DNA of 57,136 bases from positions 1 to 57,136 of the IMG/VR virus record IMGVR_UViG_3300005965_000101; one strand, 5' to 3'. Positions 5,984 to 53,344 of the stretch are shown here, piece after piece. Made by a program: the position numbers and the translations under genes. This DNA is from a virus. Position 1 is the first letter of the stretch, and each line of letters starts with the position of its first letter. The notes beneath the pieces are model-generated. The model saw only the letters and a list, made by a program, of their open reading frames with translations, was not told the DNA's origin and searched no databases.

Positions 5984-6280
5984 ATGAGTACTGAATTTAA
6001 AAAAATAGTTGGCGAGAGAGTTTATATAATAAGAAAAAAGCTAAACCTCACACAGGGAGAATTAGGTGAATCGTTAGGCTGCTCTCAGGGCAAGGTTAAA
6101 GATATAGAAAAAGGACGGATTGGTATAATCCCAGAAACAGCAATAGTACTGGCAGAAAAATACAAAATATCTTTAGATTGGCTTTATTTAGGGCGTGGCG
6201 AGATGTTTGACAGGATTTATGCCTTATCAGAACAGGATAGAGAGTTAGTTGAAAAATTACTAACCAGGTTGAGTAAATAA
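5984..6280 (+). CDS. Cro/C1-type (XRE) helix-turn-helix regulator
   Basis: 98 residues. 'RVYIIRKKLNLTQGELGESL' followed by 'GCSQGKVKDIEKGRI' is a standard XRE helix-turn-helix (residues 10-48), and 'AEKYKISLDWLYLGRGEMF' is the usual helix and short tail of C1-like proteins. The C-terminus (about 80-98) is a charged helix. There is no autocleavage (S24) domain, so any induction would not go through RecA-stimulated cleavage of this protein. It diverges from the late operon across a gap with operator-like repeats and so probably controls the late promoter, itself, or both. Confidence 0.88.
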   Translation: MSTEFKKIVGERVYIIRKKLNLTQGELGESLGCSQGKVKDIEKGRIGIIPETAIVLAEKYKISLDWLYLGRGEMFDRIYALSEQDRELVEKLLTRLSK

Positions 6281-6410
6281 CTCAAATTGAACTATTTTTT
6301 GTAAACAATTTTAAACCTTTTATAAAATTGCGTTAAATATAATTTACATAAAACTGTTTAAATCCATGTAAATAGTTTTATGGAGTATAAATAAATGCAT
6401 CAAAAGTTTA

Positions 6411-6839
6411 TTATTGAGATCGTTGTTTTTTTGACTGCAGTAGCTCAAAAATCAGATCATCAATCATCTCTGGATTTTCAGCAAGAAGAAAAAGAAGATA
6501 AGGAATTTTTTCTTTATAACCAAAAACAAACTTAAAAATGTTGTCCATTTTTTCGTAAGAATAGCCTAATTTTTCAGCGCAAGCAATGCAGATGTTTTCG
6601 TAAGAGAAATTAGGCTTATCTTCTATGAACATATTTCCTTTACCAGTAAGCAGCCAGTTAATGTCAATATTTAAATTCTCATATAGTGCAAGTAAAATTT
6701 CACTGGAAGGATTTTCTTTGGATCCACTTTCCAGCTTATTGACGTAACTGGTGGATTTACCTATTAGTTTTGCCAATTCTTCAGTGTTTTTTATATTTTT
6801 AGCTTTTTTTATTTCTTTTATTCTATTAGCTATTGTCAT
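6411..6839 (-). CDS. Cro/C1-type repressor candidate
   Basis: 142 residues from ATG 6839 (a TTG precedes it directly). 'ELAKLIGKSTSYVNKLESGS' is a clear XRE recognition segment, followed by the C1-like 'NLNIDINWLLTGKGNMF'. The C-terminal half (75-142) is helical with no peptidase motif. The gene is convergent with the regulator at 5984 and transcribed leftward, divergent from the early operon, which is where a lysogeny repressor normally sits. Upstream are 9-bp tandem repeats that may be its operator. Repressor identity is inferred from domain and position. Confidence 0.85.
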   Translation of the reverse strand: MTIANRIKEIKKAKNIKNTEELAKLIGKSTSYVNKLESGSKENPSSEILLALYENLNIDINWLLTGKGNMFIEDKPNFSYENICIACAEKLGYSYEKMDNIFKFVFGYKEKIPYLLFLLAENPEMIDDLIFELLQSKKQRSQ

Positions 6840-29362: not shown

Positions 29363-29791
29363 TTATCCCCCTTGTTTTAGTTTCATATACTTGTTATAAA
29401 TTGCCTCAGCAATTGGCTGTACGTCAGGCTCAAGATTGTCCTTAGCTTCCAATAATAGAGCTTCTATTTTATCAAACTCTCCTGATTCAAGATATTCCTG
29501 AACAGCATCTCTTACAGGTTTGTATTTTGCTTGCTGGAGTAAGGTAGCATCTTCATAAATTTCGGAAAGTTCTTTATGGATATCTTTTTGTTTTTGCTTT
29601 GCCAAATACTCGGGGCTGTCCCCAATAACAAACTCGCCATTGGAATAAAACCACGCCTGTTCTACTGGCAAGTCATGCAGTGCATTAGCTTCTCCCTCTG
29701 TAATTTCCACAAAAGGCTGAGGTACATCAATGCTTGCAGGGTATCTTTTCAAAACCTGCCCTGTATTTGCGTTATATCTAACCTTAATCAT
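29363..29791 (-). CDS. Hypothetical protein, tail-fibre-assembly-like
   Basis: 142 residues. 'VRYNANTGQVLKRYPASIDV' opens a short strand-rich part, then 'ITEGEANALHDLPVEQAWFY', followed by two acidic helices. The layout resembles small tail-fibre assembly chaperones encoded just after fibre genes, but the match is loose. It overlaps the preceding gene's end by 8 bases. Located between the DGR cassette and the lysis genes. Confidence 0.6.
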   Translation of the reverse strand: MIKVRYNANTGQVLKRYPASIDVPQPFVEITEGEANALHDLPVEQAWFYSNGEFVIGDSPEYLAKQKQKDIHKELSEIYEDATLLQQAKYKPVRDAVQEYLESGEFDKIEALLLEAKDNLEPDVQPIAEAIYNKYMKLKQGG

Positions 29792-30071
29792 TTATTACTC
29801 CCCCCACTTCTGTAACTGTGAAACCCAGTCTAAAAATCCTTGCGTTAGAGTCTTCTGTATATTCCTGTTGGATACGCTCCCCGTCTTGCTCAACTATTCT
29901 ATGTATGCTGTCCTCAATTCCTGTTTCATCTTCAGCAAGTACTTTTGTGTCTTGCCAGATGTAACGGGTATCTAATAACTTTTGCAACTCCTGCTTTGTT
30001 TTGGCAGGGTAATCAATTAACAGGTTGTAATAATCCTGTTTTGTATTTAATTTCTTCGGAAATCCTCGCAT
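29784..30071 (-). CDS. Small conserved-looking phage protein near the DGR
   Basis: 95 residues starting 'MRGFPKKLNTKQDYYNLLID', with 'TRYIWQDTKVLAEDETGIED' and 'ARIFRLGFTVTEV'. I recall this layout from small hypothetical proteins downstream of phage fibre genes, function unknown. AGGAGG lies upstream. It follows the 99-residue DGR-adjacent gene and could belong with either the DGR or the fibre-assembly genes. Confidence 0.65.
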   Translation of the reverse strand: MRGFPKKLNTKQDYYNLLIDYPAKTKQELQKLLDTRYIWQDTKVLAEDETGIEDSIHRIVEQDGERIQQEYTEDSNARIFRLGFTVTEVGGVIND

Positions 30072-30080
30072 ATAGCCTCC

Positions 30081-30380
30081 TTATGTTAATGTGTAATATT
30101 TACCGATTTTTTGTATTGTTGCTAAAAATGGAATTTTATCACCGTATTTTTCAAGCTGTTCTATAAGGACTTTTGAGCCTAAGAAAAATACTCTTTTTTC
30201 GTTGTAATCGTCTTCAAATTGTACTGTCAGGCACTTGGGGTTTTTGTCCTTGTACTTTGAATTTTGAACTTTGTAGCCTGTAATTTTTATTTCTTTGTTT
30301 AGTATTTTTTCTATGCTGATTTTATCCCCGGTTAAGGGAAAACAATTTTCTGCAAATTCTGAAAACTTAGGCACTGACAA
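30081..30380 (-). CDS. DGR-associated small protein
   Basis: 99 residues from TTG 30380, which lies 10 bases after GGAGGAG; a GTG at 30374 would give 'MPKFSEFAENCF'. Segments 'SIEKILNKEIKITGYKVQNS', 'CLTVQFEDDYNEKRVFFLGS' and 'YGDKIPFLATIQKIGKYYTL' suggest a compact beta barrel, OB-like. It overlaps the end of the reverse-transcriptase remnant, and its ribosome-binding site is inside it. No Avd-like four-helix gene is present, so this may be the DGR accessory factor, perhaps binding single-stranded nucleic acid. That role is inference from position. Confidence 0.65.
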   Translation of the reverse strand: MSVPKFSEFAENCFPLTGDKISIEKILNKEIKITGYKVQNSKYKDKNPKCLTVQFEDDYNEKRVFFLGSKVLIEQLEKYGDKIPFLATIQKIGKYYTLT

Positions 30381-30663: not shown

Positions 30664-30718
30664 TTTAAATAAAAGCCCCCGCTTTCGCTAAGGTTATGAA
30701 TTCAGCTGGAGTTTCACC

Positions 30719-30838
30719 CCATATCGCCTCCCGACTGCCGATATTCGCATTCGCATTCGAACGGACGTTATTCGCATTCCGACAACGGGAACTGCAAGAC
30801 GCACCATTATTCCAATTACCGCCTGCAATAAGAGCGTT
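30719..30838 (-). repeat. TR: DGR template repeat (TR)
   Basis: 120 bp that align without gaps to the end of the fibre gene at 30883-31002. There are 21 mismatches, 18 of which are adenine in TR (minus strand). The other three (30723, 30741, 30747) lie near the 3' end. AAY codons at the variable sites are typical of DGR templates. TR also lies inside a 62-codon frame (30665-30853) that has AAGGAG before its ATG. Confidence 0.93.
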
Positions 30839-30867
30839 GCATTCATAACTCATAACCTGAAATCTCC

Positions 30868-32379
30868 TTATACCGCTTTCGTCCAGCTCGCCCCCCGACC
30901 GCCGGCATGCTCATGCGCAGCCGAACGGACGTGATCCGCATGCCGACAACGGGAACCGCAAGACGCACCATGAGTCCAAGTACCGCCCGCAAGAAGAGCG
31001 TAAATAGAGCCATAGACTTGCCCTTTATCTCCTGACAAGCTGTCATAATTAGACCAGCTTGAGCCACCTGTAGGAGCTGATTCATTCAGCCATTGTTGGA
31101 GATAACCGCAACATTCTTCAACTCCGTAATTACTAACCATCCTTCTGGAGGCAGTATCTACGTGCCCACCTGATGTTTTCGGGGATGGTTCTGCTGCCCC
31201 TGATATAACAGTTTTTTGGTTACTCCCTTCTGCTGCGACTGAAAACTCTATATCAGTAAGCATGCGCTTGTTGGCTCTAAATAAATCTTCTGCGTGGTCA
31301 GGCCATGCCCTGGTGTCTGTTACAGTAGCTCCGTATTCCGAGGCTGTGGTTAACGTGTCTGTTGATACGTCATAAGTGCCAGACTGCAAATATATATCTA
31401 CCCAACTATCGGTTTCGGGAATGTATACCATGCCTTCTGGGCTTGCCACTGGCCTGTGAGATAAGCACCACACTGATTGAGGGAGTATATCCCCTGCTAC
31501 ATAATCCGATAACGGGTGGTCTGATATAGTTCCCACATCCACGCAAAGAGTATGGAAACCGCCTATTTTTCTTGACGTATCCGCTGCGTATCCATCAGGG
31601 TAAGTGGAATTTAGAGAAACTTTTATTTCAGACCCGCCAGAACCATCTTTGACCAAGTACACATAGTAATCTTTTCCCACGTCAAGGCTTGAGCCTGTGT
31701 CTAATAAGGTAACTATATCAAGTATGGTATCAGTATTAACGGTGTAATACCTTACATCAATATCTGTTTCAAACCTGACTTTAGTTCCTGCTTTTACTTC
31801 TAACTTCTTTTTGTCGCTGAATTGCAAGAATTGTTTGGTTAAGAAGGTGAAAGATTCAATATAACCATTTAAGAATGCTCCTATTTCCTGGACTTGTCCC
31901 CCAGAAAATTCAAAAATACTTACTTCATTTTTTTGTACCTGCCTGGATCCATAACGACTTAATTTGAGACTTGCTCCTTCTGTTAAGAGCCTAGCCTCAT
32001 TCCATTTAACATATACAATCCCTTTTGCTCTTCCAGTTATTGAGGTGATTTCGCTGGAACCAGTAACACTAAAAAAATTAGAATCTTTATCTAAACTTAA
32101 AACACTACTAGATACACTTATACTTTTTTGAGACCCCAGGGTAATTAATTGCCACCCAGTAGCAAGCGCATCTCCAGAGATTTTTTGATATAACTCTCCA
32201 TTAAGAGTGTTAACGCATAAAGCCCCTATATTGGCAACTGCAGATCCTTCTGGATTCCCTGCGTATTCAGTTATCCTGTTTTCTATCTTTCCGTTATTGC
32301 TGTTAATTTTAGTAAAAGCTTGTTTTAGGTTATCCCCTCCTTCACCTACAGTTAAATTTATTGATTGCAAATCAGACAT
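30868..32379 (-). CDS. DGR-diversified tail fibre / receptor-binding protein
   Basis: 503 residues. The N-terminal ~100 residues resemble fibre heads, and the middle (about 150-330) is beta-rich stalk. From about residue 400 a C-type-lectin/FGE-like fold common in DGR targets appears: 'SNYGVEECCGYLQQWLNESA', 'DKGQVYGSIYALLAGGTWTH' and 'GASCGSRCRHADHVRSAAHE'. Variable residues sit at about 460-499 (for example Thr, His, Asp, His, Ala, His where TR codes Asn). It ends four residues after the conserved Trp. It is expected at the tail tip, where diversification would retarget host receptors. Confidence 0.93.
   Translation of the reverse strand: MSDLQSINLTVGEGGDNLKQAFTKINSNNGKIENRITEYAGNPEGSAVANIGALCVNTLNGELYQKISGDALATGWQLITLGSQKSISVSSSVLSLDKDSNFFSVTGSSEITSITGRAKGIVYVKWNEARLLTEGASLKLSRYGSRQVQKNEVSIFEFSGGQVQEIGAFLNGYIESFTFLTKQFLQFSDKKKLEVKAGTKVRFETDIDVRYYTVNTDTILDIVTLLDTGSSLDVGKDYYVYLVKDGSGGSEIKVSLNSTYPDGYAADTSRKIGGFHTLCVDVGTISDHPLSDYVAGDILPQSVWCLSHRPVASPEGMVYIPETDSWVDIYLQSGTYDVSTDTLTTASEYGATVTDTRAWPDHAEDLFRANKRMLTDIEFSVAAEGSNQKTVISGAAEPSPKTSGGHVDTASRRMVSNYGVEECCGYLQQWLNESAPTGGSSWSNYDSLSGDKGQVYGSIYALLAGGTWTHGASCGSRCRHADHVRSAAHEHAGGRGASWTKAV
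30883..31002 (-). repeat. VR: DGR variable repeat (VR)
   Basis: Last 120 bp of homology with TR inside the fibre gene. The GC-rich 3' end (about 30883-30900; TCGGGGGGCGAGCTGG on the minus strand, against TCGGGAGGCGATATGG in TR) has the place and character of the IMH/IMH* pair that sets the direction of retrohoming. Confidence 0.9.
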
Positions 32380-43087: not shown

Positions 43088-46000
43088 TTATTTCTCTTTC
43101 TCTTCCATCCTGTCTAAAATGTTATTAATGTCTGCAAGGTACTCATCTTCATTTCCATTGTAGTATTTTTCAAGGACATTTTTTTTCTTGTTATTGTATT
43201 GAGACATTTTTCCATCAAGGTAATCCTTTGCGGCTTTTTCCAGTTCACCGTTTATTTCCCTGGTTATCATCCCGTTAATAGTGCTTAAGTATGTGGATTC
43301 ATCTTTATAATAGCCAGAGTCCAAAATTTCTTTTTTTAATTTTTTATATTTTTTCATATCGCCTTTAAAGTATGCATCAATAGCACTGTGCATTCGTTTG
43401 CTGTTTTTGTCCTTAAAAGCCCTTGTTTTTCCCCCACCAAATCTCCAGTACCAGGGGCGACCTATTACCGGAATATAGTTCCAGAAATACACATCCTTAG
43501 GGTTAGCTTTCCCACTGGCAATTCTTTTCGAGTCTCTTACTGCGGTATCTGCCATACTTGCGGTGGGAGGAGTTACATAATCCACAAAGGTACTTCCTAT
43601 TCCATCCCTGCCTGCTTTTTTAATCGTGTACCTGTTTAAAACAATAAATAACAGAATATTATCCAAAACTGTTTCCGGTATATCCACATCCCTGCCTAAG
43701 AGCCAGTCAATAACAAGGTCTTTGGGAACTCCGAACAACATCATGAAGAATTGTAATAAAGCAAGGTTTTTAAGCCCTTCAACAATTAATTTTTTATTTT
43801 TGGTTTTAACGCCGTCCGTTATCTTCATTCTGACATCACGCCTTACTACGTCCAGAATTTTCAGAGTGTAAGTTTTTAACATGTACGCAAGTCTGTATAT
43901 GCCGCCTTTTGCATAAACTTCTGGCAGCTGGTCAAGAGTTATCGGCTGAATGTCTGCAAGAGAATCAAAGGCAAGGAACAAAACCCTGTCGGTCCTCTTA
44001 TCGTTAATTAAATCCTGTTTAGCCTGCTCTGCTTCCTTTCCGAAAAGCGTTTTTAATTTTTTATTCAATTCAGGACTGTTCAACTTTGCCTGCCTTTTAG
44101 CCTTGGCAATATAACCGTTCATTAAAGTATTTTTACCCAGGGAATCTATGGCATCAAAGCCTATTATTTTGAACAATTTATTAACGGTTTCAGAAAGAGC
44201 GGTCTTGGTTTTAAATTCTTCTGCGATAGTTTCAAGCCCTAAATCTTCCCTTGTTATTTTCTGTCTTTCGGTTATTCCCTTAACAGAATCTAAAAACCCG
44301 TTTTTATAAAACGCTAATCCCATATCCCCAAACTGAACAATGGTGTTTCCAAAGTCATTAAGAGTCCCTATATAGCCTAAATCCCTTAAAGCTGCGGTTG
44401 CTCCTGTTACTTTTCCAAAATTAAACTTGGATAATAAAAGCTCTCTTACTATTCGCTCGTCCTTTGCGTATATAACCCCCTCGTTAACCATATTGTTGAC
44501 CATGGCGCCGATACTGTTCTCAACATTAAACTCATCGTTATTCAGGATTTCTTCCTGAATCTCTTCTTGAGTCTTTCTTGTATCGTTAACAAGTCTTTTT
44601 AATACAATTTCTTTTACTTTTTCAGGCTTTGCCCGTTTTATATAGCGGATCTGTTTTTCCATTTTTTCTATCCGCTCTTTTATTTTTTCAACAATTTTTT
44701 CATCAGGATTATTTTTATTGTTTTCCAATTTTGCTTTAAGTCCGTAAAACTCGTAATTAAGTCTTGTTATTTCTTTACCCTTTGCCTGCCCTGGGGTTCT
44801 TTTCTTTACTTCATAAAGGGTGTTTTTCTTCTGTTTTAAAGTGTTTCTTAATTTCCTGATGTTTTCGTTTTCCCCTCCAAAAAACTGTCTTTCTTCAATA
44901 CTTTTTCTGGTAGTGGGAACATAATGAGCCAGTGCCTCAGTAAAAGGTTTATAAAAAAGGTTCATTTCAGGAGTTAAAGTTTCTATTTTTCTGCTTGACC
45001 TTAACTGTCCGGGGCGGTTAAGTAAAATGTTATTTTTACCAAAACCCCTGATTTTTGAGTTTATAAACTTGGCTTTTTCTTCTGTGTTCCAGTTTTTATA
45101 TTTATCGTTTTCTTTTAATTCTTTTTTTATCAGGCTGTATTTTGCCTCACTGGGATCTAACACCTGTTTTTTAATATCTATTTCTTCCTGCCGGGCAAGT
45201 TTTTCAAAATACTCAAGATAAGCGTCCAGCTTATTGTTTTTAATCATCCTGGGGTAATAATTATCTATAAAACCTACATCTATGCCAGCCAGTATTGCCT
45301 GGTCATGAAGTTCCTCAAGAAGTCCCTTAACTACATTGTATTCTTTTTGAATACCGTATTTTTCAACGATTTCATTGATTTTGTCCACATCCCCGTTTTT
45401 AAGAGCAAGATCAAAGGTAAGAAAATCTTCCATCTCCATTTCTTTACTTTTCTTTAAAAACGGAGTTATAACCGCATCATCTTTCTTGGTCATCTGGAGC
45501 AGGTCAAATGTAAATCTTCTTACCTTGTTCTGAAGCATTGGAGATATTCTATGTAGTCTGGTATCAATAGGCAGGAACAGTCTGTCGTATAATAATCTGC
45601 TGTCCTTCCCGAACTCAATCAGGCTGTTTTTAATTCTGGCGGCAAGACTGTTTGCGTCTTCTAAGTCAAGCTGGGTATTTATATTTTGACTGTAAATATC
45701 ATCGCCTGTTTGTCTTTGAGGCTGTCCTTTGACAATATGAGCTTTCCCCCTTGCCTTGGCTATAAAATACTGCCCGGGATTATAGGAAAACTTTAAAAAC
45801 TCTGCAAGGGCTTCTTTTGCGGAATTAAAGGTTTTAACAATTCTGCCCTTAATTTCCTCCCATGAAGAAGGTTCTCCTATGTAGATTGAGCCTCTTCTTT
45901 TTCGTCTATCTCTTGAAGTTTCTTTACCACTATCTTGTATGCCTCTTCGTCCGTTAAATTCGGATCGTTGCCTTTCTCCCAAGCTATGCCTTGATCTATT

Positions 46001-49000
46001 GTACGCAAAAGCGATACTTCTTTTTGGATCGGTGAAAGTTTTTCCATCTCTTTCTCCATTTATTATTTCATTTAGCAAAAACACCATTTCTCTGGCGTGT
46101 CGCTCTAACCTGTTGTTCTTGTATAAATTATAGTTTTTAAAATATTTTTTGTTAATCTTGTAAATAAAATCATCAAGTTTTATTTGTAACGAATCCTGAT
46201 TAAATTGCCAAATGTGTGTTAATTCGTGTATTAAAGTATTTTGAATATCTTCGTTTGATAGCTTGTCAATGTTTATAGCAATCTCTTTATGGGTTTTCGA
46301 GGCAGCACCCTTTTTGGTATAAATATCTTTTTCTGTAAGTTTTTTAACTTTTATGTTTTTAAAATCCGCAAAAACATCTTTAATAACTGAATCTTGTACA
46401 ATTTCATCAACCGTAGCGGATTCAATTTCTCCATTTTTTAGTTTTTCAATAGCTTTTTTGTTTAAATAGACCTCTTTAGGCTTGCTGTATTCTTCACCTA
46501 TAGACAAATAAGTATTTTTTTTTCTAACAGTACTTTCTTTTATAGCCTCCTTGAACTCTTCCACAAAATCATCAAGCGGTTTTTTAGATGCCTGCTGTTT
46601 TTTGTACTGCTGTTCGTAATCAGCAAGTTTTTTCTTTTTTGTTTCCTCCAAATTTTCTTCCTGTTTTTTAAGGCTTTCAAGCTCTTGGTCAATATCCTCA
46701 ATAAGCTTTTCCTGTTTTTTGATATCAATATCAAGTCTTTTTAAAATGGAATCTAAACCTTTTAACCGCTTTTCTGTTTTTTTAAGCTCTTTTTTATTTG
46801 CCTGAAGCCTTTTTTCAAGCCTGTTAAATTCCATTTCATCTTCAGGAGAAAGTTTTGATTTTTGCTCTTGGAATTTTTCCACTTCGCTTTTGTACCATTT
46901 TTTAGAATCTTCTGCCTTTTCGTACTCATTGGCATAATATTCAATAGTTTCTTTTCTTCCTTCCAGTTCAGCTTTTCTGTTTGAAATACTCTGTCTTTCA
47001 ATACTTTCAAACATTTTTACTTTTTTATCAGGAAGAGAAATCATATTTAATTTTTCTTCAGCAGTGTTCAGCTCTCCTGTGTCAATGTATTCTTTATTCT
47101 CGTCCATTATGTTGTTAATTCTTGACGTTTTTTCATCAAGTTTCTGGAACATAAAGGGATCTGAAGAATTTTTTAACAAAGGTGTTACTATTCTTACTTT
47201 TTCATAAGCGTTTCCCTGCCTCCAAACACGTCCTATTATTTGTATAAAATCAGTAGGGTTCCAGTCGATAAAAGGAATATAAAGCGCACTGGTGTTTTTG
47301 TTAAGGTTCATCCCTTCTTTAATTTTTTGTGTGCCTATAATAAGCTTTACTTTGCCTTTAGGGTCATTAAAAGAATCTGTGATTTCAGGTATTTTGTCGT
47401 CTTTAACCTGTGAAGAAATAACCGCCACTTCATCAGCCTTAAAGATTCCTTTATCCACAAAATATTGTTTTAATTTCGGAATAAATTTTAACCCAAGAGG
47501 GAAATATATAAGCTGTGAAGTTTGCGGATCTTGATTTTTCATTGTCTGTACTGTTTTGGCTACATATTCAAGTTTAGGCGAATTTTCCACAAACTCTTCA
47601 GGGGATACCTCAAGATTGTTTTCTGCTATGTCAGGAGATAATGTTGTTGCCCTTGCCTGGTTGATTTTTTTAAGGATGGCCCCGTCTTCATCAGAATTAA
47701 CCGCTTCTTCTTCAAATTTTGAAATTAAATCCAACTGCCCTTGGCTTGGCTCTAGTACTACTTTGTCAACAACTTTTTCCGGTCTTTGCACTCCTGCATC
47801 ATCAGCAGAACGAATAAGCATCGCAGATTTGATAAGGTTTCTTAAACTTCCCGCATTCTTAAACCCTTTAACCACCTGCGAATAAGCAACGTTATTATCG
47901 CTGTCCACAACCCAGTCCGCTGTCATATCAGCGTATGATTCCATAAACTGATAAACATTATATAAACCCATCTTGTCCAACTTATCCTTGGCGATAAAGG
48001 AAAGCATATTAAATACTTCCAGAGGGCTATTATTAAACGGTGTGGCAGTAGCCATAAACACATTTCTATTGTTGTTCTGTTTGAGAATATGCTGGACTAA
48101 AAGGAATAACCTCGCTGCCCTTGCAGAAGGATTGCCTCCCCTGCCAACACTCTGGTAAGCGTTATTATCCCTGCCGTGCGCTTTTGCCTGTCTGAACAGG
48201 TTTCTAAAATTATGAGCCTCATCAACAGTAATATGGTCAAAACCTAATTCGTTTATTGTGAATTGCTTTTTATTACCTTTTTCTGCAATCCCTATCATTT
48301 TCTCAATATCTTCTTTTAGCTGCTCCCTGCCTCTTTCTGTGGATGACTTATTGAAATCTGTACCAACCCTGAAAAGCTCGTCAATAAGTTCTCTTATCTG
48401 TCCGGTCCTGAAGGTTTCACCATCTTCTGTTTTATGCAATGTCTCGTCATACCACATATTGCCAAGAGCTTCATATGTGGCTACTGTAAGGGAGCCTTCT
48501 TTTATTTCCCCATTAAATTTAGATAAATTCCCTACGTCATTAACCTGCATATTAGGGAAAAGTTCTTTAATCTCTCTAATCCAGTTATCTTTTACCTGCT
48601 TGGGAACCAAAATAAGCGGCTTTTTACACCTGCCCATCTGCATGTTCTGAACGGTGGCGACAATAGAAGCTAAGGTTTTACCCACTCCGACCTCTGCACC
48701 AAACAAGCCCACCCCTGTATTAGTCATGAAATTAATAGCTTCTGTCTGGACATCAAGAAGATTTAAGGTTTTCTCGTAAAATTCTGAATTAAGTTCTTTA
48801 ACCATTAACGGGATTTTCTTAAAGTCAGGAACATATCTATTATTAAACTTTCTGTTCCACTCGCTTCTTAGCTTTTGCTTTTCCTCTCTGGTTAATTGAG
48901 TATTAATATAATCGTTAAAAAGTTTGTCAGCTGTATTTTTTATTTTTGTAAGTTTATCAACCTTTTGTGCTGCCTTTTGTTCTTCATTACCGTATGTTTT

Positions 49001-52000
49001 TACCTGTAATCTTCCCCCTCGAATATAATCATAAAGATCATAAGCTGAAACTCCGTTTCTTTCGCTAGCTGATACTTCATAGATATATTCTTTAAACCTT
49101 TCGGCAAGAGTATCCTGTTTGGTGAAGACCTCATTTTCCCCTTTGTAGTAATTATAAATTTCTGTTTTTGTTTCTCCAAAGGAAAACTCCTGGGTGAAAT
49201 CAGAAGTGGGGGTGAATTCTACCTCTGAAACCTCTTTGGGCTTTGGAAGGACTTCAGTTAATTTTTTCTTTTGCCATGATCTTTGTTCTTCAGAAATGTC
49301 CTCTTTTTCAAGCTGCTCAAGTTTTTCGTAAATATCACCCTGAAGATAATTAAAATCGTTATAAAGCTCGCCTTTGTATTGACTTACTGTCTTACTTGGG
49401 GAATATTTGTTTTTTGGCAGAGTTCCATCAACCTGCGTATCAGCCCATAGCTTATACTCCTCTTTGGAAATTTTTTGCTCAGGAACATAAGGAGTGTATT
49501 CAATTGTTTGTATATTGCTTTTTTCCGGGGTCGTTTTTTTCGCACTTGTTTTTTGCGGCTGTTGCTTCTGCTCCAGTTTTTTAGTTTCTAGCTTTGCTTT
49601 AACTGTTTCTCTGATATCTTTTTCAGAAGTGTCTATTTTTTCAACCGCTGTCTTGTCGCCTTTTACATAAGTTTCCTCTTTGCCGAACCTGTTCTTCCTG
49701 GTTTCAGTTTGCCCTAAGATTTTTTCAGGGCTTTCTTTAAACCAGTTATCATTAATAATTCTTTTTGAGAGGGTCAGGTCTTTTTCTTTCCTGAGAACAA
49801 TAATATCAGTACCTATGGTTGTGGTATCAAACATTTTTTCAGGAAGCCTGTAAGCGTCAACAAGTTTTGCCTGATTACTTATTTTCGCTTTAGTTGTACT
49901 ATAAGCCCCCTTTAGGAAAGAACTTGGAACAATATAAACAAGGATCCCGTTTTCTTTTAGTATATCCAGTCCACGCTTAATAAAATATTCCTCTATTTTA
50001 GCAATGCCCTGCCCTTCGCCCATTCCTTTATATCTGCCTGAATACTGCCCGTAAGGAGGGTTCCCGATAACAATGTCGTATTCAGGAGTTACATTTTTAA
50101 CCGGCCTGTTAACTTTGTTATCAATAAACTTTTCCTGAAATTCCCCGACGTTAACATCTATTCCGGGATATAAAAGCTCTGCTATTTTTGCGCTTACCGG
50201 GTTCATTTCATAAGAATCAAACTTTATTCCAGCCGGAGCATGTTCTACAAACCTTCCAATTCCAACACTTGGCTCAAGAGCTTTAGCCTCAGATGTTTCC
50301 ACATACTGCCTTACAATACCCCACATTTTTTTAACGACATTATCAGGAGTATAATATTCAGATAAAAGCCCTCTACCGCTTGCCCCCTGTTTTTCTAAGC
50401 CGCCTGCGCCAGAATATTTTTTAAGAAAATCTTTTATTTCTTTTGGGAGTTTGTCATATTTTTTGTATTCTTCAGAATTAACAAAATCCTCAATAGCCTT
50501 ATTGAGCTCAACCTGATTTTTATATTCTTTTTCAATTATTCCTCGGTGTTCGGAACGTATCCCGGTTCTGTCTGAAGGTCTGATTCCAGAAATGCCGCTG
50601 CCTGTGTCAATGTCAGGTTGTTTTTCTCCATCATTGGTTTGAGCATCTTCATCAGATATTCCGGGTTTCTTTCCTGAATCCTGCTCAGGTGCGGAAACTT
50701 GTCTTTGTCGAGTTTTTCCATATTCTATGCCCTCTGTTTTTTTATCATTATAACCGATGTTTTCTTGGTTTTCACTATTTTTACTTATATCCTCACGTTC
50801 AGCTTCCTGTTTCTTACTTGGTGGCACTGTTCCGACGATAATCTCTCCGACAGTTTCTTCTCGGTCTTGTTCTGACTTCTCCTTGTTAACGGCTGTATTA
50901 TTCTTAGCGGTTGACAGTTTATCTTCATTTATCTCCTCCATTAAATCGTTATAGACCAATCCCAAATTCTGTTTGTTTAAATTTCCGCCATCAAGAAAAT
51001 GTCTGTAAAGCTCAAGGGAATCTTTGTCTGAAAAATCTTCTGCCAATTTTTCTGCAAGTTTAGTTTTAGACTCTCTCTCTAAGTCAATAATAGAATTCTG
51101 CTTGTCAGAGTTTTTTAACCTTGTTATTAATTTTTCATCTTGTTTTAACAGGTCAATAAGTTGTTGGTTTTTGTCGCTTACATCACTCTCGCTGGGTTGT
51201 ACTTTATTCTGCGTTTTCTCATTCTGAATACTTGGAACTCCTTGAACGACATTATCTCCACCTCGTTCGTTTTCTTGTTCTTGCGAAGTCTTGCTATTGG
51301 GTCTTTGTAACTGGGGTTCGGCCTGAACGCCTGATACATTCTTACTCTTGTCTTTGTCATTTTTTCTTTCCCTCGCTAAATTTTCAATATCTTGATCTGA
51401 AACATTTTGGTCATTAAGCAACCCTATTAATTCATCATCAGGAATTACGTCTGAATATGGATTACTTTCAATAGACTCTATCTCCGCACCCTTCTGTGCC
51501 GTCTCATCAATAACAACATCCTGCTCTTGAAAATCATCCATTTCAGGCTGTATAGCATCCTGTACACTTTTAAGCGTTTTTTCACTTCCATAATTAAATT
51601 CAGGTATTTCCGCTGGTACTGGATTAACTCGCTGCCTGTTTTTATAGAAATTCCTAAGGCCAGAAAAACCAACCTGCTTAAGTTCATTCCTGAATTCTTC
51701 ATATTCAGACTCACTTAATTCCCCCTTTAAATAGTCCCTCCACCCTGGGTATGTATTAAACTGGTTTGCATTTTCAGCATATAGCCTGTATTCATCAGGA
51801 ATACGTTTTCTTTGCGGCTTGCCCTTTACCGGAACATACTCTACCCCCTCATCTGGAGGGCTGTCGATAAATTGATTTTCTAAATAAACACCGTCAGACG
51901 GAGCAGGTTTTTTAAAATTCTTCTGGTTCTGCACCTGTTCAAGGCTGACAGTTTCACTAGAGTAGAAAGTGTCGAGAGCATCTCTGGCGAATAACTCCTC

Positions 52001-53344
52001 TTCAACCCAGATTAAATCCTCAAGCAGGGCTTTGTCTGATTCTTCGACTGTGCCTTCTGTTAAAGATTTTCTTAGTTCCCCTACATTTCCGTATTTATTG
52101 TCTATATGGCTTTTAATATTGTTTCTTTCTTCATTAAGAAGGTCAATTTCAGACTGTTCCTGCTCAAGCTGTTGTTTTAGTTTCTCGGATTCTTCAAGTC
52201 CGGCATATTCCTGCTCTTCTATAATATTATCAACAGTATTAGGACTTTTATCCTGGTCATAGGGATCCTGAACAACATCTTCAATATTTAAACCTTTTGT
52301 CTGTGCCTGCGGTTTTTGGTACTGCGCCCGTGGTAGCCTTTCAATCTCTTTTTCCTGAAATTCTTTAGTAGGTGTTTGTGCTTCAGTTAAAACATGTCCG
52401 CCTGCGCCTAATCCTAAACCTGCTAAAAACCCAGCGGCAGCCGATGAAGGAACACCATTTATGGGGCTTGTCTCAATCCCGGCTATTTTATCAACAATAT
52501 TAGCAGTTATTTGCTGGGCAGATTCTTCTAAAGATTCTTCGCCAGCAGTTTTAAAACTGCCGCCAAGGATAGAAAATCCTTTTTGAATCAAAGTTTTAAC
52601 TTCTGTTTTTGCCATTTCTTTTGTGGCTTCACTAGTGAAAAGTTTTTTAAACACAGGGACAGCACCCATAATATTTTCTAGTTTTCCTGATATAATACCT
52701 TCTCCTATTGCTAAAGGAGCGGCTTTCTCAGGCTCAATTCCATGTTCGCTAACAAGTCTGTTATATGATTCTCCTGCCAGCTGAGGATATAAAGAGACTC
52801 CCCCACTTGCGCCAGCAGCTAAAACCATAGGAAGGTTTTCTGTTGTGTACTTGCCTATAGTGGGAAATATAGAACCAGGTTTATCCAAGAAAGCTTGTCC
52901 TGCTTTCCCTAAATTCCCCTGTGCTATCTGCTCAGCAATTTCAGTATTAGGGGTTTCAAGGTGTTTATTTTTTGCCAATTCTGATAGTTGGTTTCCTGCC
53001 ATCTCTGTAATGGCAGGTCCTTCAGGTGCCAGAGGGTTAATTTTATTAAGGGCTGTTATCCCTTGAAGAAGCCCACTTCCAGTGTTTAAGGCTCCACGAG
53101 TAAAGTCTTTTGTTGTATTAGCAATAGTGTTAGTTACTGGATTTTCATAGGTGGAGACTGCAAGTTTTTCTACAGGGTTTAAATTTGCGTACGGGTCAAC
53201 AGGCTGCTTAACTTGTTGTGGTTCATAGTCATCAGAAAACTTTGTATCTGCAAATAAATCGAAATCCTTTTCGGATTTCTTTTTCTTTTTTTTATTAGAG
53301 CTTGCTTCAAACTCCGTGCCATCAAACAAATCGAATTCTGCCAT
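43088..53344 (-). CDS. 3418-residue polyvalent protein: methylase, SNF2-type helicase, metallopeptidase, virion domains
   Basis: Residues 1-340: Gly/Ala-rich ejection-like part; 340-950: charged, disordered. About 960-1230: N6-adenine-type methylase with 'VIGNPPYGQYSG' (about 1095). About 1540-2080: SNF2-like helicase with 'FGAEVGVGKTLAS' (about 1550), DEAHNF (about 1707) and 'QIIGRVWRQGNAYEKV' (about 2035). 2130-2290: coiled coil. 'NTLIHELTHIWQF' (about 2372): zinc metallopeptidase. The C-terminal 900 residues are helical with a membrane-prone stretch 'FFMMLFGVPKDLVIDWLL' (about 3195). Such polyvalent proteins are thought to be injected with the genome and to counter restriction. The frame is unbroken over 10.2 kb. 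Confidence 0.9.
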   Translation of the reverse strand: MAEFDLFDGTEFEASSNKKKKKKSEKDFDLFADTKFSDDYEPQQVKQPVDPYANLNPVEKLAVSTYENPVTNTIANTTKDFTRGALNTGSGLLQGITALNKINPLAPEGPAITEMAGNQLSELAKNKHLETPNTEIAEQIAQGNLGKAGQAFLDKPGSIFPTIGKYTTENLPMVLAAGASGGVSLYPQLAGESYNRLVSEHGIEPEKAAPLAIGEGIISGKLENIMGAVPVFKKLFTSEATKEMAKTEVKTLIQKGFSILGGSFKTAGEESLEESAQQITANIVDKIAGIETSPINGVPSSAAAGFLAGLGLGAGGHVLTEAQTPTKEFQEKEIERLPRAQYQKPQAQTKGLNIEDVVQDPYDQDKSPNTVDNIIEEQEYAGLEESEKLKQQLEQEQSEIDLLNEERNNIKSHIDNKYGNVGELRKSLTEGTVEESDKALLEDLIWVEEELFARDALDTFYSSETVSLEQVQNQKNFKKPAPSDGVYLENQFIDSPPDEGVEYVPVKGKPQRKRIPDEYRLYAENANQFNTYPGWRDYLKGELSESEYEEFRNELKQVGFSGLRNFYKNRQRVNPVPAEIPEFNYGSEKTLKSVQDAIQPEMDDFQEQDVVIDETAQKGAEIESIESNPYSDVIPDDELIGLLNDQNVSDQDIENLARERKNDKDKSKNVSGVQAEPQLQRPNSKTSQEQENERGGDNVVQGVPSIQNEKTQNKVQPSESDVSDKNQQLIDLLKQDEKLITRLKNSDKQNSIIDLERESKTKLAEKLAEDFSDKDSLELYRHFLDGGNLNKQNLGLVYNDLMEEINEDKLSTAKNNTAVNKEKSEQDREETVGEIIVGTVPPSKKQEAEREDISKNSENQENIGYNDKKTEGIEYGKTRQRQVSAPEQDSGKKPGISDEDAQTNDGEKQPDIDTGSGISGIRPSDRTGIRSEHRGIIEKEYKNQVELNKAIEDFVNSEEYKKYDKLPKEIKDFLKKYSGAGGLEKQGASGRGLLSEYYTPDNVVKKMWGIVRQYVETSEAKALEPSVGIGRFVEHAPAGIKFDSYEMNPVSAKIAELLYPGIDVNVGEFQEKFIDNKVNRPVKNVTPEYDIVIGNPPYGQYSGRYKGMGEGQGIAKIEEYFIKRGLDILKENGILVYIVPSSFLKGAYSTTKAKISNQAKLVDAYRLPEKMFDTTTIGTDIIVLRKEKDLTLSKRIINDNWFKESPEKILGQTETRKNRFGKEETYVKGDKTAVEKIDTSEKDIRETVKAKLETKKLEQKQQPQKTSAKKTTPEKSNIQTIEYTPYVPEQKISKEEYKLWADTQVDGTLPKNKYSPSKTVSQYKGELYNDFNYLQGDIYEKLEQLEKEDISEEQRSWQKKKLTEVLPKPKEVSEVEFTPTSDFTQEFSFGETKTEIYNYYKGENEVFTKQDTLAERFKEYIYEVSASERNGVSAYDLYDYIRGGRLQVKTYGNEEQKAAQKVDKLTKIKNTADKLFNDYINTQLTREEKQKLRSEWNRKFNNRYVPDFKKIPLMVKELNSEFYEKTLNLLDVQTEAINFMTNTGVGLFGAEVGVGKTLASIVATVQNMQMGRCKKPLILVPKQVKDNWIREIKELFPNMQVNDVGNLSKFNGEIKEGSLTVATYEALGNMWYDETLHKTEDGETFRTGQIRELIDELFRVGTDFNKSSTERGREQLKEDIEKMIGIAEKGNKKQFTINELGFDHITVDEAHNFRNLFRQAKAHGRDNNAYQSVGRGGNPSARAARLFLLVQHILKQNNNRNVFMATATPFNNSPLEVFNMLSFIAKDKLDKMGLYNVYQFMESYADMTADWVVDSDNNVAYSQVVKGFKNAGSLRNLIKSAMLIRSADDAGVQRPEKVVDKVVLEPSQGQLDLISKFEEEAVNSDEDGAILKKINQARATTLSPDIAENNLEVSPEEFVENSPKLEYVAKTVQTMKNQDPQTSQLIYFPLGLKFIPKLKQYFVDKGIFKADEVAVISSQVKDDKIPEITDSFNDPKGKVKLIIGTQKIKEGMNLNKNTSALYIPFIDWNPTDFIQIIGRVWRQGNAYEKVRIVTPLLKNSSDPFMFQKLDEKTSRINNIMDENKEYIDTGELNTAEEKLNMISLPDKKVKMFESIERQSISNRKAELEGRKETIEYYANEYEKAEDSKKWYKSEVEKFQEQKSKLSPEDEMEFNRLEKRLQANKKELKKTEKRLKGLDSILKRLDIDIKKQEKLIEDIDQELESLKKQEENLEETKKKKLADYEQQYKKQQASKKPLDDFVEEFKEAIKESTVRKKNTYLSIGEEYSKPKEVYLNKKAIEKLKNGEIESATVDEIVQDSVIKDVFADFKNIKVKKLTEKDIYTKKGAASKTHKEIAINIDKLSNEDIQNTLIHELTHIWQFNQDSLQIKLDDFIYKINKKYFKNYNLYKNNRLERHAREMVFLLNEIINGERDGKTFTDPKRSIAFAYNRSRHSLGERQRSEFNGRRGIQDSGKETSRDRRKRRGSIYIGEPSSWEEIKGRIVKTFNSAKEALAEFLKFSYNPGQYFIAKARGKAHIVKGQPQRQTGDDIYSQNINTQLDLEDANSLAARIKNSLIEFGKDSRLLYDRLFLPIDTRLHRISPMLQNKVRRFTFDLLQMTKKDDAVITPFLKKSKEMEMEDFLTFDLALKNGDVDKINEIVEKYGIQKEYNVVKGLLEELHDQAILAGIDVGFIDNYYPRMIKNNKLDAYLEYFEKLARQEEIDIKKQVLDPSEAKYSLIKKELKENDKYKNWNTEEKAKFINSKIRGFGKNNILLNRPGQLRSSRKIETLTPEMNLFYKPFTEALAHYVPTTRKSIEERQFFGGENENIRKLRNTLKQKKNTLYEVKKRTPGQAKGKEITRLNYEFYGLKAKLENNKNNPDEKIVEKIKERIEKMEKQIRYIKRAKPEKVKEIVLKRLVNDTRKTQEEIQEEILNNDEFNVENSIGAMVNNMVNEGVIYAKDERIVRELLLSKFNFGKVTGATAALRDLGYIGTLNDFGNTIVQFGDMGLAFYKNGFLDSVKGITERQKITREDLGLETIAEEFKTKTALSETVNKLFKIIGFDAIDSLGKNTLMNGYIAKAKRQAKLNSPELNKKLKTLFGKEAEQAKQDLINDKRTDRVLFLAFDSLADIQPITLDQLPEVYAKGGIYRLAYMLKTYTLKILDVVRRDVRMKITDGVKTKNKKLIVEGLKNLALLQFFMMLFGVPKDLVIDWLLGRDVDIPETVLDNILLFIVLNRYTIKKAGRDGIGSTFVDYVTPPTASMADTAVRDSKRIASGKANPKDVYFWNYIPVIGRPWYWRFGGGKTRAFKDKNSKRMHSAIDAYFKGDMKKYKKLKKEILDSGYYKDESTYLSTINGMITREINGELEKAAKDYLDGKMSQYNNKKKNVLEKYYNGNEDEYLADINNILDRMEEKEK

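Follow-up and report, generated by a model that had tools for sequence, protein, structure and literature searches.

The 57,136-nucleotide viral DNA analysed here (IMG/VR record IMGVR_UViG_3300005965_000101, positions 1 to 57,136; hereafter the window) carries on its minus strand a diversity-generating retroelement (DGR) of the Bordetella phage BPP-1 type, attached to the gene of an Mtd-like tail protein. Elements of this known kind remodel the tail tip of a phage and with it the range of surfaces bound. We estimate at about 0.87 the probability that this DGR once worked and later lost its function through two separate deletions, in its reverse transcriptase (RT) and in the spacer between the template repeat (TR) and the RT. 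Because the RT catalytic core is absent, no other RT occurs in the record and the hairpin of the relatives' spacers is lost, we read the cassette as the remnant of a DGR rather than as a working one. A sequence-only reading of the window had described a DGR that has diversified the probable receptor-binding tip of the phage. The DGR cassette, the Mtd-type variable repeat (VR) and the changes at template adenines bear this out, and the past tense of "has diversified" holds. An operating DGR, which its title implied to be in place, does not agree with the loss of RT core and hairpin.

Table 1 Features of the DGR locus (window coordinates)
Feature	Positions	Strand	Remarks
DGR target gene, Mtd-like tail receptor-binding protein, 503 aa	30868..32379	minus	Pfam mtd_2nd, phrog_11262, PDB Mtd
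VR	30883..31002	minus	3' end of target gene; true core about 30888-31001
TR	30719..30838	minus	AAY-rich, encodes NALIAGGNWNNGASCSSRCRNANNVRSNANANIGSRE; true core about 30724-30837
TR-to-RT spacer, internally deleted	30664..30723	minus	Junction about 30690/30689; retains only GCGAAAGC...GGGCTTTT, 3' half of conserved hairpin
DGR RT, catalytic core deleted in frame, 98 aa	30367..30663	minus	RT residues 1-86 + last 12 (LQLEELQRVVSA); junction about 30406/30405
OB-fold-like gene, intact	30081..30374	minus	GTG start overlaps RT stop by 8 nt; conserved beside DGR RTs

The TR lies downstream of the VR on the minus strand, at an offset of 164 bp, and the two align over 120 bp without gaps. The coordinates and counts given by the sequence-only reading were recovered exactly, the true cores being slightly shorter. 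Eighteen of the 21 mismatches are at TR adenines, which make up 28 of the 120 template positions (hypergeometric P 1.2e-11); 12 of these 18 affect first and four affect second codon positions. The variable copy reads YALLAGGTWTHGASCGSRCRHADHVRSAAHEHAGGRG where the AAY codons of the template read NALIAGGNWNNGASCSSRCRNANNVRSNANANIGSRE. The GC-rich 3' end noticed earlier in the fibre gene is also visible in the counts (79/120 G+C in the VR vs 61/120 in the TR). Comparison with relatives places the end of the homology at the boundary of the initiation of mutagenic homology (IMH), where GCGA is followed by GCT in the VR and by TAT in the TR; relatives have GCGGA followed by GCC and by TAC at the same place. 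Hence, the IMH/IMH* difference is present at the 3' ends of the two repeats, and the last two mismatches (30887, 30886) fall outside the repeat, beyond the end of homology. In the trimmed core of 99 nt, 15 of 23 template adenines and two of 76 other bases are changed in the VR. No third copy of TR or VR was found anywhere in the 57-kb window. A near-identical TR/VR pair differing at template adenines, as expected of a DGR, is therefore present.

The same pattern extends to related cassettes. In a comparison set of 74 distinct cassettes from viral contigs and genomes, 64 have an intact RT, and their VRs differ at 983 of 1576 template adenines and at 20 of 4771 other bases. The proportion of changed adenines is 65% in the window and 62% in the 64 intact relatives.

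By sequence and predicted structure, the target gene, whose start had been correctly placed, is a homologue of BPP-1 mtd, and its product adopts a C-type-lectin-like fold. The protein matches Pfam mtd_2nd (E 3.8e-26, residues 188-305), the PHROG tail family phrog_11262 (5.9e-55) and, by sequence, BPP-1 Mtd itself (PDB 1yu0-1yu4). Its AlphaFold2 model is mostly confident from residue 181 and poor before. It superposes on solved Mtd structures with Z about 30 and 2.6 A over about 295 residues, in agreement with the lectin-like fold first proposed; the match to 1yu3 and 1yu4 covers residues 178-503. After Mtd, the closest folds are formylglycine-generating enzymes, other DGR variable proteins and C-type lectins. 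The protein thus combines the second domain of Mtd with a lectin-like C-terminal domain bearing the VR, and homology and fold agree in placing the VR at the 3' end of a C-type-lectin-type target.

The open reading frame (ORF) next to the TR matches PHROG reverse transcriptase 1423 (3.9e-21). The RT homology reported for this fragment is real, but what is left is a core-deleted enzyme. Its residues 1-86 share 51-69% identity with the start of the intact DGR RTs (about 335-342 aa) of the closer relatives, and its last ~12 residues resemble RT C-termini, e.g. LSLQLEELKEMA in L095 (L numbers designate loci compared). The remnant ends in GTGCCTAA, a stop/start overlap with the next gene that is found exactly so in the intact cassettes L040, L055 and L007. 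Between the two parts, about 240 codons are deleted in frame, every catalytic motif included, and the SQ and YxDD motifs of a DGR RT are accordingly missing near the TR. No RVT_1 domain was found elsewhere in the 57-kb record, and nothing in the record convincingly resembled the missing core by tblastn.

Judged from its alignment with relatives, the spacer carries a second deletion, separate from the RT lesion. At 60 nt, against mostly 112-180 nt in relatives, it is shorter than every other TR-RT spacing measured. In the alignment it passes from ...CAGCTGAATTCATAACCTT directly to AGCGAAAGCGGGGGCTTTT, the 3' half of a hairpin (YAGUAG...GAAAG/GAACG) in which most relatives' spacers end, just before the RT. 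In this hairpin, both sides have changed with pairing kept in 11 of 13 pairs (36 sequences). Of 58 other loci searched with a covariance model, R1, 40 contain it, with scores of 20-57 bits and nearly always immediately ahead of the RT; the majority of the 40 had no part in model building and score 20-52 bits. Examples lie at L014 5934-5990, L036 5939-5996 and L012 5940-5997. The model finds no hairpin in the window spacer, the best score in the window (6.1 bits) being outside it, so that the structured spacer RNA of a DGR is lacking. Rfam gave no match in the window or in the five relatives scanned, and R1 gave no hit in the BPP-1 spacer. In that phage, the RT complex is recruited by the RNA between TR and RT, and an adenine within this RNA primes cDNA synthesis (PMC12875486); the hairpin of the present clade is possibly an RT-recruiting or priming element. 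A BPP-1-like hairpin right after the VR is not evident in the window fold and is not uniform in relatives, and we draw nothing from it.

In our reading, adenine-to-any-base mutagenic retrohoming from TR into VR diversified the Mtd-type tail tip in the past. The two lesions, seen against the relatives, are the in-frame loss of about 240 RT codons and the loss of roughly 50-110 bp in the spacer of the TR RNA, removing the 5' arm of the hairpin; the order in which they arose is inferred. Overlap between the RT stop codon and the start of the next gene, which suggests translational coupling, may explain why a deletion that kept the RT frame was tolerated. The VR would now change by ordinary mutation only, so that receptor specificity would be fixed and the tail tip frozen. 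That RT-core deletions in this clade were selected, locking a good receptor-binding tip while keeping translation into the coupled OB-fold-like gene with a function of its own, is a further and rather doubtful idea.

Signs of decay were sought in the VRs of the comparison set. Interior changes at bases other than adenine are absent from 49 of the 64 intact relatives, while the window has two, which fits decay. The RT core is truly deleted in three of the 74 cassettes: the window and, each independently, L014 and L025. In L014, the RT (6001-6744) has lost its catalytic part by an in-frame deletion between residues 159 and 246, an independent event; its spacer hairpin is intact and its VR shows five interior non-A changes. 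In L025, the RT breaks off at about residue 131 and runs into a later gene, and the VR has no such change. Neither the L014 nor the L025 record yielded another RT domain. Pooled, the three core-deleted cassettes have non-A changes at 7 of 228 positions against 20 of 4771 in the intact ones (Fisher P 1.5e-4), a value that is indicative only, as the groups with dead, possibly amber-recoded and C-terminally short RTs were set after viewing ORFs and mismatch counts. The short RT ORFs of L072, L083, L097 and L108 were rejected as dead RTs and set apart: homology runs in frame through their internal stops, which are TAG in the three where the codon was seen, and these phages possibly read TAG as an amino acid. 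The RTs of L076, L078 and L079, which end about 50 residues early, were also set apart.

Several points weigh against inactivation. Taken alone, the excess of non-A changes in the window is weak (Fisher P 0.046); two or three such changes also occur in four intact relatives. The branch length of the RT remnant is ordinary, with no accelerated evolution, which implies either that the loss is recent or that the remnant is constrained. The loss of activity, very probable as it is, is deduced from assembled sequence. An assembly error in the RT is formally possible, though unlikely in view of the further lesion in the spacer.

Carried further, that argument would have the DGR still active, both deletions being assembly errors or a minority variant in a population with an intact cassette. 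The IMG/VR-type origin of the record, the conserved RT N-terminus and a template-adenine saturation typical of active relatives would agree with it. However, it would require two separate lesions about 280 bp apart, and the in-frame RT junction leads into an authentic RT C-terminus, conserved overlap included; the VR also bears its two non-A changes. In addition, L112, a record with another IMG/VR sample number found by its terminase, matches the window at 99.98% identity over 5.7 kb. L112 is the only near-identical record and covers other parts of the phage, without the DGR region; it thus confirms that the phage is real but has no bearing on the two junctions. No near-identical record spanning the DGR was found with a 26-base VR-flank pattern, the target protein, the RT remnant or a neighbouring structural gene. 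Overall, we regard an active DGR as improbable. Diversification of the VR in trans, by the DGR of the host or of a co-infecting phage, in a cassette without its own RT appears highly improbable: the local TR, without its spacer hairpin, would hardly be usable by a foreign RT, a foreign TR would need to match this VR, and no second RT occurs in the record. Ordinary duplication of the gene end with a chance substitution bias, to which the presence of just two copies 164 bp apart might point, is refuted by about 70 relatives with the same arrangement, 62% adenine changes and almost no others, as well as by the adenine specificity (P 1e-11), the template AAY codons, the Mtd target and the RT N-terminus.

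When Avd was looked for, the gap of 44 bp between VR and TR proved too short for a gene, and a gene resembling oligonucleotide/oligosaccharide-binding (OB) folds was found downstream of the RT instead. Counting the window and some near-duplicates, 74 records have a homologue downstream of the RT start, which usually follows the RT directly; in seven (L072, L091, L101, L104, L105, L106, L110) the homologue precedes the RT, on the side that avd occupies in BPP-1. In many loci, its start overlaps the RT stop. Its product belongs to no Pfam family and was not named by NCBIfam or PADLOC, PADLOC giving one weak Cas5 match (E 4e-4). The predicted structure (mean predicted local distance difference test score, pLDDT, 88) is weakly similar to OB folds, including those of single-strand-binding proteins (Z up to 7). 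From its position, the protein is a candidate DGR accessory factor. In L017 and L087, the RT ORFs are about 440 aa long and the frame seems to run into a downstream gene, homologous to window 29784-30071, in an apparent fusion.

Its genes for terminase, integrase, RecE/RecT, helicase and primase, in a virus record, make a temperate tailed phage the most likely source of the window. Elsewhere, an ORF of 3418 codons fills 10 kb (43088-53344); among the loci compared, similarity to it was found only in L099.

The cassette resembles the BPP-1 DGR (mtd-avd-TR-brt) in its Mtd target with a C-terminal VR, in the TR downstream and the RT after it, and in VR changes at template adenines except at the IMH end. 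It differs from BPP-1 in the deleted RT core and spacer part, in the lack of avd between VR and TR, and in the OB-fold-like gene that follows the RT. Among the closest relatives by RT N-terminus is L007 (IMGVR_UViG_3300005201_000721; 66%), which has the same order of Mtd-type target, TR, RT and OB-fold-like gene with the same stop/start overlap; unlike the window, its RT is intact (342 aa), its spacer of 149 nt has the hairpin, and its VR lies 858 bp from the TR with a gene in between. Inactivated DGRs described with DiGReF in 2012 (PMC3521204, Figure 4) likewise combine a disabled RT with a TR/VR pair that can still be recognised. Those cases arose from nonsense changes, frameshifts or insertions, with VRs changed at adenines only, whereas in the window the RT was deleted internally with its frame preserved, the TR RNA carries a second lesion, and the VR has interior changes at non-A bases. 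In Treponema, target remnants without RT or TR are known (PMC4891356).

Disabled DGRs being already known, what is new here is that the core was deleted in frame, that the template RNA suffered a matching loss and that core deletion recurs in L014. The textbook signature of a DGR, an adenine-specific TR/VR pair with RT homology nearby, does not imply an active element, and the RT core and the spacer hairpin offer two simple tests to tell live from dead cassettes in metagenomes. Together, the window, L014 and L025 indicate that the RT is recurrently lost in phages that retain the diversified VR.
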